DNA of 64,000 bases from Corallococcus macrosporus DSM 14697 (GTDB lineage Bacteria > Myxococcota > Myxococcia > Myxococcales > Myxococcaceae), in NCBI RefSeq assembly GCF_002305895.1, contig NZ_CP022203.1, positions 3,636,501 through 3,700,500 on the forward strand, given 5' to 3'. The notes under the pieces were generated by a model, which made no database searches, was not told the origin of the DNA, and worked only from the letters and a program-made list of their open reading frames with translations. Positions 39,015-43,510 of this stretch are shown here, one piece after another. A program made the translations under genes and the position numbers. Positions within the stretch are counted from its first letter, which is position 1; every line of letters starts with the position of its first letter.

Positions 39015-40367
39015 ATGCACAGAATGCGAAGGTGTCTGGCCGCGCTGTTGCTGGTGTGTCTGCTTCCGATGATGGGGTGGGCCTCGGAGCCGCCCTTGCC
39101 CGAGGAAGAGGCTCCGTCCGCGCCACCGGCCTCGCCCGCGCGCAGGTGGTACTCCCTGACGCGCCTGGAGGTGACGACGTTCGCGTTGCTCCCTCGCGCT
39201 GGCGCTGGTGGTGATGGCGGCTTCATCCAGGTGGAGCCCACCTTCATCCTTGATGGGGGCCCCGAGTTCGGCGTCAACGTGGGCGCTCCCGTGCGCTTCC
39301 GCATGTGGGGCGGTGGCGAGGGCACGGGCCTCGTGCGGCGGGAGGACTGGGACTCCCTTTCGGACTGGGGGCAACTCGTCCGTGGCCTCAAGCTCGGCTC
39401 GGACAACGCGCCCATGGCCGTCTGGTTTGGCGCCCTGGCGGATTACCGGCTCCTCTCCGGCCATCTCGTCCGCCGCTACTCCAACCGCACGAATCCCGAC
39501 TACCACCCAGCAGCGGGCATCTTCACTGGTGAGGTTGGCCCGCTCTACACGGAGGCCTTCGCCTCGGACGTGCTGGGCGCGCGGCTGATGGGCGCGGAGG
39601 TCGCCCTGGACATGGAGCACGTCCTCTTCGGCCAGCCCAGGCAGCGGGGCCGTTACACGCTCGCGCTGTCCGCCGTGCATGACTGGGGACGCGCAGGTGG
39701 ACGCGCGGCCTCGGTGACGCTGGCGCACGTGGACGCAACGGCGGGGGTGTTGTTGCGGCCTGACCATGAGGTCCACGTGATTGCCGGGTGGGGCGGTCGT
39801 CCGGGAGATGGGGGCGCGTGGGGCGCCGTTGTGGGGGCCGGGGTGGACGTGCTCCGGGAGACGCTCCACCTGCGGTTGCGGCTGGAGGCTCGGCGCCAGC
39901 AAGGCGGCTTCCGGCAAGGCTTCTTCGGAGCGGACTACGAGTTGGCGCGCTTCCAGGCCGCGGGCCCGGAGGGCATGCCGCTCGCGGGTGCTGGCTTCCC
40001 GGACGGCTACTCGGCTTTCGGAGAGGCGGAGGTGGGTTGGGACGCCGTCAGCTACGGGGGCCTCTACAAGCACCTGAAGCTGTCGCTGGGCGCGGAGGCG
40101 TTCTCCTGGGGGCGCTTCGACGTCGACGGGCGCGTGGCGGCGCAGCTCATCGAGCGCAGCTTGGAAGTGGCGTTGAAGGGCCTGGGCGTGGGCATGGGGC
40201 GGCCCGGAGCGCGCTACCTGGGGGCGGCGGAGGTGCGCTGGCGATTCCTGGGCGGGAAGCTCTATGCGATGGGGACGGGCGGCACGCTGCTGTTCGCCAC
40301 GGCGGAAGGGACACTGCGACCGGGGGCCTTCGCGTCGGTGGGCCTGGGGGTGGACAATGCGCGCTGA
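39015..40367 (+). CDS. Predicted outer-membrane/exported protein in toxin-like locus
   Basis: The 450-residue protein has a signal peptide (MHRMRRCLAALLLVCLLPMM, cleavage after GWAS). A short Pro/Glu/Ala spacer (about 26-44) leads to a long beta-rich body with alternating hydrophobic residues and many Gly/Tyr/Phe: WYSLTRLEVTTFALLPRAG, YTLALSAVHDWGRAGG, ASVTLAHVDATAGVLLRPDH, TLHLRLRLEARRQQG. It ends TLRPGAFASVGLGVDNAR. This is the look of a beta-barrel or surface protein; no family name is recognised. GAGG lies about 7 nt before the ATG. It overlaps the nuclease-like gene by 11 bp, so the two are translationally linked and probably act together. Confidence 0.75.
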   Translation: MHRMRRCLAALLLVCLLPMMGWASEPPLPEEEAPSAPPASPARRWYSLTRLEVTTFALLPRAGAGGDGGFIQVEPTFILDGGPEFGVNVGAPVRFRMWGGGEGTGLVRREDWDSLSDWGQLVRGLKLGSDNAPMAVWFGALADYRLLSGHLVRRYSNRTNPDYHPAAGIFTGEVGPLYTEAFASDVLGARLMGAEVALDMEHVLFGQPRQRGRYTLALSAVHDWGRAGGRAASVTLAHVDATAGVLLRPDHEVHVIAGWGGRPGDGGAWGAVVGAGVDVLRETLHLRLRLEARRQQGGFRQGFFGADYELARFQAAGPEGMPLAGAGFPDGYSAFGEAEVGWDAVSYGGLYKHLKLSLGAEAFSWGRFDVDGRVAAQLIERSLEVALKGLGVGMGRPGARYLGAAEVRWRFLGGKLYAMGTGGTLLFATAEGTLRPGAFASVGLGVDNAR

Positions 40368-41877
40368 CGTTCTGCTGTGGGTGGTAGCGGTGGTCCTGGC
40401 CACGAGGGCGCATGCGTCCGGCCCTGGCTCAACGCTGCACGACGCATCACGCGTGGCCACGTCCCCCGCGTGGGTGGAGCTGCCGGGCAGCGAGACTCCG
40501 CGCGTCCCGGCTTCACCTCCGCATTCCATCGCGGGGTCCGAAGCCCAGCAGCGGCTGTGGCGGAAGCTGATTCCACGAAACGACGCAATAGGCGCTGGAC
40601 CTGGCACTGCGTCCGTCGCTGTCGGGGGCGGCGTGCAGAGCGCCGCATCGGTGCGTCAGGCAACCCTCGACGCTATTGCCGAGGTGAAGCGCGCCCTGGA
40701 GGGCATCGAAGCCGCACGCGCTCGACTTGCGTCGCGTCCTTCCTCTCTTGGGGAACGTGGACTCGAGGGTGTCTTCACGCGCTATCTCGACCACGGCTCC
40801 AAGCAACTGACGTGGCTCCAACGGACGCTCGAGAGCGCCACGGCGCTGGCGGGAGTGGCGTCGGAGGTCGGGGATTCAGGAATGGAGCTGAGCATCCTCC
40901 AGATGTCGGGGCCCCGCCTTCAGTCCGCGATGTTCGGAACCCTGCTGCTGGCCACGTGGGTGGACTTCCTTCAACTCGCGGACGCCCTGCTCCGCGACTG
41001 CCCCATGTGCGGCTCCGAGAAGCTGTTCGCGGACCTGCACCGAGTTCAAAGCAAGCTGACCCCGACGCTGGAGGAATTCGCCTCGGAGGACTCGCAGCGT
41101 ATCGAGGCGGCGACGACCGCGATGCCCGCGCTGATGGGGGAGCTGACTCACGAGTTCGACACGATTCGTCGGGAGGCGCGCTCCGCCATGGAAGTGGGCG
41201 GCAAGGTCGTGGTGGCGGCGCAGGTGATGGAACTGCTCGCCCTGATTTCCACGCTGAAGATGTCACTCCCCCGGCCACCTCCAGCGACGCTCGGTGTAGG
41301 GCTCGTCATGAGTTCGGGGGGCGTCATGGCGGGCTCGCGGCTCGTCGTCTCGGCGGAGTGGGTGGAGATGATGCGCAGGCTGGTGCAGGCGGGCGTCCTT
41401 TCCCTCCCAGCCGTCAGCGCCGCTGTCCGCATTCACGGTGGGCAGGTGATGATGGCCCAGGCGCGCCAGGACTTGCCCGAGGGCGTGCGTGAAGCGCTGG
41501 GGGACAGCCCCGAAGTGCGCGGCATGCAGGTGACGGGCAAGGCCGGTGCGGGCATGGCCGACGCACCGAGGCATCACGTCCTGCCGAAGGAGCACCGGCG
41601 GTGGTTCGAGCAGCGCGGCTTCAAGGGAGACATGGACATCGACCAGTTCTGCGTCCGGCTGGAGCGGGCCTATCACGAGGCGATTCACGGAGGAGGGAAT
41701 TGGAAGCTGGGGCGCACATGGCCTGGAGAGTGGAGTCGAATGATCATGGAGGCGCTGTATGAAGCTGAGACCACGACAGGTCGGAGGTTGACGAATAGCG
41801 AAGTCCTGAACATCGTCGCGGAGCGCATGCGGAGCTACGACATCCCGATGAAGTTCATCAAAGGGAGGAGCCGATGA
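40357..41877 (+). CDS. Secreted toxin-like protein with C-terminal HNH/His-Me-like nuclease domain (DUF2380/TIGR02269-like)
   Basis: The 506-residue protein has a signal peptide (MRADVLLWVVAVVLATRAHA) without a lipobox Cys. The long helical middle (about 85-330) has amphipathic segments and a hydrophobic patch (about 290-345). The C-terminal domain (about 395-506) carries H406-H407-V-L-P and, after DIDQFCVRLERAY, H440-E-A-I-H444-G-G-G-N-W. This is an arrangement seen in HNH/AHH-type toxin nucleases and in the myxobacterial DUF2380/TIGR02269 group. N-terminal export plus C-terminal nuclease is the layout of polymorphic toxins. Its stop overlaps the next start (ATGA). The toxin role is inferred from architecture. 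Third codon positions are less GC-rich near the 3' end. Confidence 0.75.
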   Translation: MRADVLLWVVAVVLATRAHASGPGSTLHDASRVATSPAWVELPGSETPRVPASPPHSIAGSEAQQRLWRKLIPRNDAIGAGPGTASVAVGGGVQSAASVRQATLDAIAEVKRALEGIEAARARLASRPSSLGERGLEGVFTRYLDHGSKQLTWLQRTLESATALAGVASEVGDSGMELSILQMSGPRLQSAMFGTLLLATWVDFLQLADALLRDCPMCGSEKLFADLHRVQSKLTPTLEEFASEDSQRIEAATTAMPALMGELTHEFDTIRREARSAMEVGGKVVVAAQVMELLALISTLKMSLPRPPPATLGVGLVMSSGGVMAGSRLVVSAEWVEMMRRLVQAGVLSLPAVSAAVRIHGGQVMMAQARQDLPEGVREALGDSPEVRGMQVTGKAGAGMADAPRHHVLPKEHRRWFEQRGFKGDMDIDQFCVRLERAYHEAIHGGGNWKLGRTWPGEWSRMIMEALYEAETTTGRRLTNSEVLNIVAERMRSYDIPMKFIKGRSR

Positions 41878-42344
41878 CCGATGGACGTTCGTGGCAGGGG
41901 AACTGGAAGGCCCGCCTGTATGCGCGTGTCCGTGAACGCGGCTACGACTCACTCACGGCTTTTGCCGAGTCCCGTCCCACCTCATCGTTGGTAGCACTGG
42001 CCGAGGAGCTTGGGCCGGACGACGTTGCCGGAGTTCAGGTGTACGATGGTCTGGTGGTCGAGGCGGTGCGAAGCAAGCAAGTGACCCGCTTGGTTCGAGG
42101 ACAGCTCGTGCGCGAGCTCTGGGGGAGCCTCCCCGATGGGTGGCCGGCGGTGCTCGATGACACGAGTCGATTCGCCGTCGCAAAGGCGCTTGGCCCCTGG
42201 ATTGCCTATACCCCAGAAACGCACAAGGAGCGCGCACGCGCAGTCAGGACGTCGCTCCTCGTCGATCCGCCCCCTGCTGGCTGGCGCCCTCGCGGTCCTG
42301 ACGACGAGCTCCTCCGCACGCGCCTCCCCGACGAAGAATCGTGA
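41874..42344 (+). CDS. Putative immunity protein for the nuclease-like toxin
   Basis: The 156-residue acidic soluble protein begins at an ATG overlapping the toxin stop (ATGA) and has a strong AGGGAGG site, so it is co-translated with the toxin. It has no signal peptide, so it should stay in the cytoplasm, where a nuclease would have to be neutralised. The sequence (WKARLYARVRERGYDSLTAF, LVALAEELGPDDVAGVQV, LVRGQLVRELWGSLPDGWPA) matches no enzyme motif I can name. Its position, size and coupling are the standard arrangement of an immunity gene. Many codons end in A or T compared with neighbours, suggesting transfer as a unit with the end of the toxin gene. Confidence 0.7.
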   Translation: MTDGRSWQGNWKARLYARVRERGYDSLTAFAESRPTSSLVALAEELGPDDVAGVQVYDGLVVEAVRSKQVTRLVRGQLVRELWGSLPDGWPAVLDDTSRFAVAKALGPWIAYTPETHKERARAVRTSLLVDPPPAGWRPRGPDDELLRTRLPDEES

Positions 42345-42409
42345 CCAACATCCCTCCGCGACCCGCGCGGTGCGGCGTCACCCCAGTCTCACCGCGCGAG
42401 CGAGTCCAC

Positions 42410-43510
42410 ATGTCAGACACCCCATTGACCCTCAGGGCCCTCAACCGCGCGACGCTGGCGCGGCAGATGTTGCTGGAGCGTGAGAAGACCTCCGTGCTCG
42501 GCGCGGTGGAGCAGCTCCTGGCGCTTCAGGCCCAGCAGGCGAAGCCGCCGTTCATTGGCCTGTGGTCGCGTGTCGCGGGCTTCGGGCGGGATTCGCTCAA
42601 CGTGCTGCTCCATCGCAAGGAGGTGGTCCGGGCCACGTTGATGCGCGGCACGCTGCACCTGGCGAGCGCGAAGGACTATCGGCACCTGCGCGCCAGCTTC
42701 ACGCCGTTGCTGGAGGCCTCGGTGGCATCGGTGCTGCGCGAGCGCGCGAAGGGCCTGGACGTCGCGCCGCTCGTGAAGGACGCGCGCGCCTTCTTCGACG
42801 AGGCACCGCGCACCTTCGAGGCGCTGCGCGACCACCTGGTGGCCCGCTACCCGCGGAATGACGAGCGCGCCATGGGCTTCGCGGTGCGCATGTTCCTCCC
42901 CCTCATCCAGGTCCCCACGGAGACGGCGTGGGGCTACCCCGGCACCACGGACTTCGCGGTCGCGGAGTCGTGGCTGGGGGCGTCCCTGCGCGCGGAGGCG
43001 GACCTGCCCACGCTGGTGCGGCGCTACCTCGCGGCCTTTGGTCCAGCGACCGTGGCGGATGCCCAGACGTGGTCCGGGCTCAAGGGCCTGAAGGCCACCT
43101 TCGAGTCCCTCCGCCCTTCGCTGCGGACCTTCCGGGACGAGAAGGGGCGGGAGCTGTTCGACGTGCCCGAGGCGCCGCGGCCGGACGAGGACACGCCCGC
43201 GCCACCGCGCTTCCTCCCGGAGTTCGACAGCCTGGTGCTCGGCCACGAGGACCGGGCCCGGCTGGTGGATGAGGCGTACCGCCCCAGGCTCATCACCAAG
43301 AACCTGCGGGTCCCCGCCACCTTCCTCGTGGATGGCTTCATCGCCGGGACGTGGACGGTGGAGCGCAAGCGCTCGGTGGCCGCGCTCGTCGTCGAGCCCT
43401 TCGCGCCCATCAAGAAGAAGAAGGACCGTGACGCGCTCGCGAAGGAGGGCGAGGCGCTCCTGCGCTTCCTTGAGCCCGACGCCCGCACGTTCGAGGTTCG
43501 AGGGCACTGA
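42410..43510 (+). CDS. Winged-helix DNA-binding protein, AlkZ/YcaQ-like (HTH_42)
   Basis: The 366-residue protein begins LTLRALNRATLARQMLLERE and continues AVEQLLALQAQQAKPPFIGL, the typical opening of HTH_42 winged-helix proteins related to the AlkZ/YcaQ DNA glycosylases. MRGTLHLASAKDYRHLR matches the helix bearing the QxQ/Thr-His region of this group. AFGPATVADAQTWSGLKGLK and LPEFDSLVLGHEDRARL follow, both typical. The QAQQAK stretch may correspond to the catalytic QxQ motif of AlkZ-type glycosylases. Likely role: excision of unusual DNA lesions or crosslinks, or DNA binding. ATG 42410 was chosen by family start; a GTG at 42341 overlapping the immunity stop (GTGA) is an alternative. Confidence 0.82.
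   Translation: MSDTPLTLRALNRATLARQMLLEREKTSVLGAVEQLLALQAQQAKPPFIGLWSRVAGFGRDSLNVLLHRKEVVRATLMRGTLHLASAKDYRHLRASFTPLLEASVASVLRERAKGLDVAPLVKDARAFFDEAPRTFEALRDHLVARYPRNDERAMGFAVRMFLPLIQVPTETAWGYPGTTDFAVAESWLGASLRAEADLPTLVRRYLAAFGPATVADAQTWSGLKGLKATFESLRPSLRTFRDEKGRELFDVPEAPRPDEDTPAPPRFLPEFDSLVLGHEDRARLVDEAYRPRLITKNLRVPATFLVDGFIAGTWTVERKRSVAALVVEPFAPIKKKKDRDALAKEGEALLRFLEPDARTFEVRGH

Follow-up and report, generated by a model that had tools for sequence, protein, structure and literature searches.

The closest described systems are the SitBAI cassettes of Myxococcus xanthus. Their SitA toxins are described as lipoproteins, since it is by the anchor in the outer membrane that they become cargo of TraAB exchange. 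For transfer, a type II signal that directs a protein to the outer membrane is enough (PMC3325183), and all orthologues have lipoboxes according to the founding study (PMC5562445; SitA1/2 and SitA3 searches). Published sitB and sitA overlap by 11 bp, SitB is a predicted outer-membrane beta-barrel and the reported length of SitA2 is 783 aa (PMC5562445), with a Tox-RNase-5 (PF15648) domain reported for one SitA3 allele (PMC8546572). Here we describe a locus of three overlapping genes (overlaps of 11 bp and 4 bp) at positions 39015-42344 of a 64,000-nucleotide stretch, referred to as the window, from the complete 8.97 Mb genome of Corallococcus macrosporus DSM 14697 (contig NZ_CP022203.1, positions 3,636,501 to 3,700,500). 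Judged from its sequences, the locus is of the known SitBAI type; what is unusual is a toxin lineage without a lipid anchor, yet intact-looking and under selection. The best explanation, to which we give a probability of about 60%, is a sitBAI-type kin-discrimination cassette with a lipobox-less, type I-exported, SitA-like nuclease toxin, delivery by outer membrane exchange (OME) and cognate SitI immunity. The evidence read from the genomes for this interpretation comprises gene order and overlaps, homology, invariant histidines, tip-immunity co-exchange, apparent purifying selection after loss of the lipobox cysteine (Cys) and the presence of TraA and TraB, while toxicity, immunity and delivery are probable by homology with characterised SitBAI cassettes.

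Gene layout and toxin family

The features of the locus, all on the forward (+) strand in window coordinates, are as follows.

39015..40367, +: SitB-like accessory gene (450 aa) with type I signal, overlapping the toxin gene by 11 bp; the product, a predicted outer-membrane toxin partner, has paralogues ahead of SitA1/2-like and SitA3-like lipoprotein toxins in this genome
40357..40367, +: sitB/sitA overlap, 11 bp, ATGCGCGCTGA
40357..41877, +: gene for the SitA-like toxin (506 aa); the family is myxobacterial and multi-copy
40357..40416, +: type I signal peptide of the toxin, MRADVLLWVVAVVLATRAHA, cleaved before S; lipobox region at about 40399-40407, Cys gone by in-frame deletion
40627..41541, +: escort-like middle region, aa 91-395, helical, under apparent purifying selection
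41542..41736, +: conserved part of the toxin domain with the histidine motifs, aa 396-460 (HHVLP...HEAIHGGGNW), DUF2380/SitA6-like
41737..41874, +: polymorphic toxin tip, aa 461-506, exchanged jointly with the immunity gene
41874..42344, +: SitI-like, predicted cognate immunity gene, 156 aa, cytoplasmic, all-helical model

The layout proposed in an earlier, sequence-only reading of this DNA, namely three genes joined by 11-bp and ATGA overlaps, is exact at 40357-40367 and at 41874-41877 (4 bp), and the same arrangement is also present in relatives. The longest open reading frame of the first gene begins at GTG 38970; ATG 39015 is the preferred start because of the signal peptide, which is of type I with cleavage at ...MMGWA/SEPP. 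Neither the first nor the third gene product matches any curated family. The same reading had pointed to a resemblance to sitBAI, and this is substantiated by the shared 11-bp overlap and by SitB-like paralogues in the same genome, which are 62-82% identical to the first gene product: the 62%-identical paralogue precedes a 783-aa SitA1/2-like lipoprotein, and the 76%-identical one precedes a 540-aa Tox-REase-5 lipoprotein paired with Imm52 immunity. A SitB-like frame (at least 350 matched residues) reaches the same 11-bp overlap in at least 27 of 61 relatives and is truncated, absent or cut by contig ends in the others.

Two side observations concern SitB-like loci of this genome. A distant SitB-like protein (L116, genome 8032544-8033776; 35% identical), possibly a housekeeping relative of SitB, has no recognised toxin gene beside it. 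A cassette of SitB, a SitA3-like Tox-REase-5 protein and Imm52 (L088, genome 8639179-8644992) lies directly before an apparent CRISPR array with regular repeats. The signal and linker region of the window toxin (40357-40644, residues 1-96) is 44% identical to L088:3010-3297, the escorts being otherwise unrelated, which suggests that sitB plus the toxin 5' end has been exchanged between SitA families.

The nuclease-like motifs to which the sequence-only reading had drawn attention, HHVLP (toxin residues 406-410) and HEAIHGGGNW (440-449), are indeed present, with no change at the histidines H406, H407, H440 or H444 in any of 61 homologues. The full-length toxin touches only the DUF2380 and TIGR02269 models, at residues 402-469, the latter model bearing the title "SitA6 family polymorphic toxin lipoprotein". 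The isolated C-terminal domain scores above the Pfam DUF2380 cut-off (28.6 vs. 26.3 bits), a DUF2380 match is found in 18/18 relatives tested, and a profile comparison against the SitA6 proteins of the same genome yields a probability of 96%. These matches make the toxin C-terminus a homologue of the SitA6 (DUF2380) toxin domain and a predicted nuclease. Membership of SitA6 itself was rejected (TIGR02269 score of 22 vs. a cut-off of 85.75 bits, with a match confined to aa 402-463), and a claim about the toxin fold was dropped, the AlphaFold model of the full toxin having a mean pLDDT of 61 and a best PDB match of E 0.1, to unrelated helical bundles. Toxin-family matches occur in 26 of the 27 Myxococcus genomes (up to nine per genome) as well as in Corallococcus, Pyxidicoccus and Archangium, and the window genome holds six full-length copies.

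Loss of the lipid anchor

The window toxin does not have the lipobox cysteine by which a SitA lipoprotein is recognised, and its first Cys does not come before residue 215, in agreement with the plain signal peptide described in the sequence-only reading. Most relatives begin with MRADALLL..VLATGCAS, containing a lipobox (LATGC), where the window toxin has VVLATR-AHAS. A mis-called start hiding a lipobox was considered and rejected, as the upstream frame is the sitB coding sequence read out of frame and contains no second signal sequence.

A clade of nine toxins in the family tree (support 100/98) includes the window toxin; eight of its members, from five genomes, are without Cys. The Cys codon is kept as TGC in one copy (L055), reads GGC in another (own8561) and GCC in five copies, and is removed by an in-frame deletion in the window toxin and in L079. 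AHAS, an A-x-A signal-peptidase I-like site, is present in 8/9 clade members (one copy has EHAS) and absent from the lipidated sisters, which have VPHAP or similar; L055 bears Cys yet already has AHAS. Since L055 is nested in the clade, there must have been either more than one loss of Cys or a regain. Additional Cys-less copies outside the clade are L061 and L135 (from two genomes), L161, and L013, whose 5' end is replaced; L161 is the weakest case of loss because of its long branch and the lack of a SitI match in its fetched stretch. On a tree of 88 sequences the lipobox label needs six changes, of which well-supported branches force at least five. Assembly error is unlikely because G007 and G024, other genomes with clade members, are single-contig assemblies. 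On this reconstruction, lipidation is the ancestral state of the toxin family, from which the window gene departs by a secondary loss. No spread of a lipobox-less signal to other SitA families was seen, as all three toxins recovered that combine this signal region with another C-terminal domain have Cys.

Ratios of nonsynonymous to synonymous substitution (dN/dS), calculated by the Nei-Gojobori method with recombination ignored and therefore indicative only, are 0.30 vs. 0.33 overall, 0.20 vs. 0.34 in the escort and 0.24 vs. 0.25 in the toxin domain for the Cys-less clade vs. its lipidated sisters. Thus, the Cys-less alleles do not appear to be simply decaying, because purifying selection and toxin-immunity diversification persist.

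Exchange of toxin tip and immunity gene

At each of the 61 loci a small gene overlaps the stop codon of the toxin gene, its product being 58-87% identical to that of the window. For the immunity protein, AlphaFold gives a confident (93.6), all-helical model with no fold match in the PDB; a weak RecA sequence match over a 28-position stretch was dismissed. Within the toxin, mean pairwise identity is 0.69 in the escort (91-395), 0.875 in the histidine-motif part (396-460), the most conserved part of the protein, and 0.59 in the tip (461-506). Tip distances correlate with immunity distances (Mantel r 0.35, p 0.005), and no correlation with escort distances is seen for either the tip (r -0.04) or the immunity protein (r -0.02). 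The eight Cys-less copies, 90% identical in the escort and 58% in the tip, show the same pattern (tip-immunity r 0.62, p 0.006; escort-immunity r -0.01). Blocks of tip plus immunity gene that are 93-98% identical are found on escorts only ~68-72% identical, and near-identical blocks are carried by lipidated as well as by non-lipidated toxins (L056 vs. L034/L035; L054 vs. L041); L056 and own0496 also share such a block, with escorts 86% identical.

As these alignments indicate, the swapped unit is toxin residues ~461-506 plus the immunity gene, moving independently of the rest of the toxin. The swapping of toxin-immunity pairs that had been suspected from the window alone is thereby borne out, for a unit smaller than the C-terminal domain. 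The accompanying expectation of a constant N-terminal part and a variable C-terminal and immunity part held for the N-terminal part and for the tip and immunity gene; the histidine-motif part of the C-terminus turned out to be conserved, and the variation is at the allele level within one toxin-domain family. The break at residue ~460 is sharp and suggests that immunity specificity in this family is set by the last ~46 residues. The lower GC content of the toxin 3' end and immunity gene was confirmed by measurement (55% in the tip vs. 68% in mid-gene; 71% vs. 82% at third codon positions, GC3, for the immunity gene). However, recent horizontal transfer was rejected as its cause, because the drop runs through the whole family, with no sign of a recent transfer specific to this locus.

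Extra SitI genes, probably orphan or displaced immunity genes, stand behind some cassettes (L091:4831-5298, L090:1032-2049, L089:537-1001): L091 has a second SitI with 90% identity to the window immunity protein, and in L090 an intact SitI lies beside a decayed toxin fragment. Downstream of the window cassette, an AlkZ-like DNA glycosylase gene (PF06224, window 42341-43510) has a possible GTG start overlapping the immunity stop codon by 4 bp; ATG 42411 is an alternative start, so that the gene is only possibly coupled to the immunity gene.

Delivery and comparison with described Sit systems

The window genome carries traA and traB as a pair of genes, which score 1163 and 995 bits with the respective models; they were located through an OmpA-domain gene that follows a Cys-rich one, and NCBIfam models confirmed them. 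A candidate for TraA from a PA14-domain search (L119) is a different protein. TraA is above cut-off in 27/27 Myxococcus genomes. With this machinery, the mature toxin would be exported without a lipid anchor, would be kept at the outer membrane, in the simplest case by SitB or by helices of its own, and would pass by OME into a TraA-compatible neighbour. There the escort region may take it into the cytoplasm, where it would cut nucleic acid unless a matching immunity protein binds the tip. CglE and CglF, which have type I signals, are thought to transfer (PMC3325183).

Several points weigh against such delivery or limit what is claimed for the toxin. Periplasmic mCherry is exchanged poorly if at all by OME (PMC3721248), so that loss of the anchor should harm delivery. 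Among the three Cys-less copies in the window genome, an intact SitB gene is found only at the window copy, the other two being one without SitB and one with a frameshifted SitB. The nuclease assignment rests on sequence homology because the AlphaFold model of the toxin is poor. The poor exchange of periplasmic cargo and the lost and frameshifted SitB genes are also in line with Cys-less alleles that are delivery-defective, the cassette being kept mainly for immunity against lipidated-allele kin and as a donor of tip and immunity gene for gene conversion with lipidated paralogues; the extra or displaced SitI genes retained beside cassettes (L091 and L090, above) fit this too. We consider this explanation unlikely, if worth keeping in view, in light of the full-length frames, invariant catalytic histidines and low dN/dS of Cys-less toxins in five genomes, and of the apparent signal-peptidase I site (AHA/S) in the same clade, already present in the Cys-bearing L055.

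A type I signal without an anchor would free the protein to the periplasm or the outside, and the lipobox was lost several times in the family; both would suit a TraA-independent route in which Cys-less toxins leave the cell in soluble, bacteriocin-like form, into the medium or on vesicles, or through a different export system. This route is rather improbable, as the escort region, SitB overlap and TraA-bearing genomes are the same as for the lipidated siblings and no dedicated secretion gene was recognised among the scanned neighbours. The high conservation of the histidine-motif region might even be expected of an envelope protein operon with a housekeeping role and no toxin-immunity system, a view rendered scarcely credible by the scattered multi-copy cassettes, the co-exchange of tip and immunity gene, the orphan immunity genes and the relatedness to SitB and to the toxin domain of SitA6.

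For the kin-discrimination cassette, retained toxin function is favoured because selection and tip-immunity diversification continue in the Cys-less clade. As to delivery, the lineage would have another outer-membrane association (SitB being the obvious candidate), another route, or weak delivery with retention for immunity. A recurrent switch from lipid-anchored to lipid-free toxins, with lipobox-less alleles still active in kin discrimination via SitB, another outer-membrane partner or a non-OME route, is a tentative proposal with slightly less than even odds in our estimate. If it is true, a lipid anchor would not be obligatory for the SitA toxin class. A lipobox-less lineage that is intact and diversifying, and whose genomes also hold lipidated siblings, offers a natural experiment on the anchor requirement, which also bears on the role of SitB and on toxin passage from the outer membrane to the cytoplasm.

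Overall, the window cassette shares with SitBAI of M. xanthus (SitA1/2, SitA3; Vassallo et al. 2017, PMC5562445) the gene order, the 11-bp sitB/sitA overlap, the SitB type I signal, a predicted C-terminal nuclease-type domain, a downstream immunity gene, a genome with TraA and TraB and a homologous SitB, and differs from it in a toxin without a lipobox. The window escort region is not homologous to the SitA1/2-like and SitA3-like proteins of the same genome, except for the first ~95 residues shared with SitA3-like. With SitA6 (TIGR02269/DUF2380) the histidine-motif toxin domain (HHxxP...HxxxHGG...W) is shared, whereas the N-terminal part, the missing lipobox and an immunity protein without CXXCG motifs set the window cassette apart. 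SitA4 (Vassallo et al. 2021, PMC8546572) resembles it in a non-modular toxin domain described as an AHH nuclease and in a sitB sometimes found upstream, although the published families are described as lipoproteins; our best guess, from a comparison by published description only, is that of the six published families the window toxin belongs to SitA4. Not having the lipobox cysteine, the window gene is therefore classed as a lipobox-less variant and not as a SitA lipoprotein, while by descent, as traced through its homologues, it is a member of a SitA-type toxin family.
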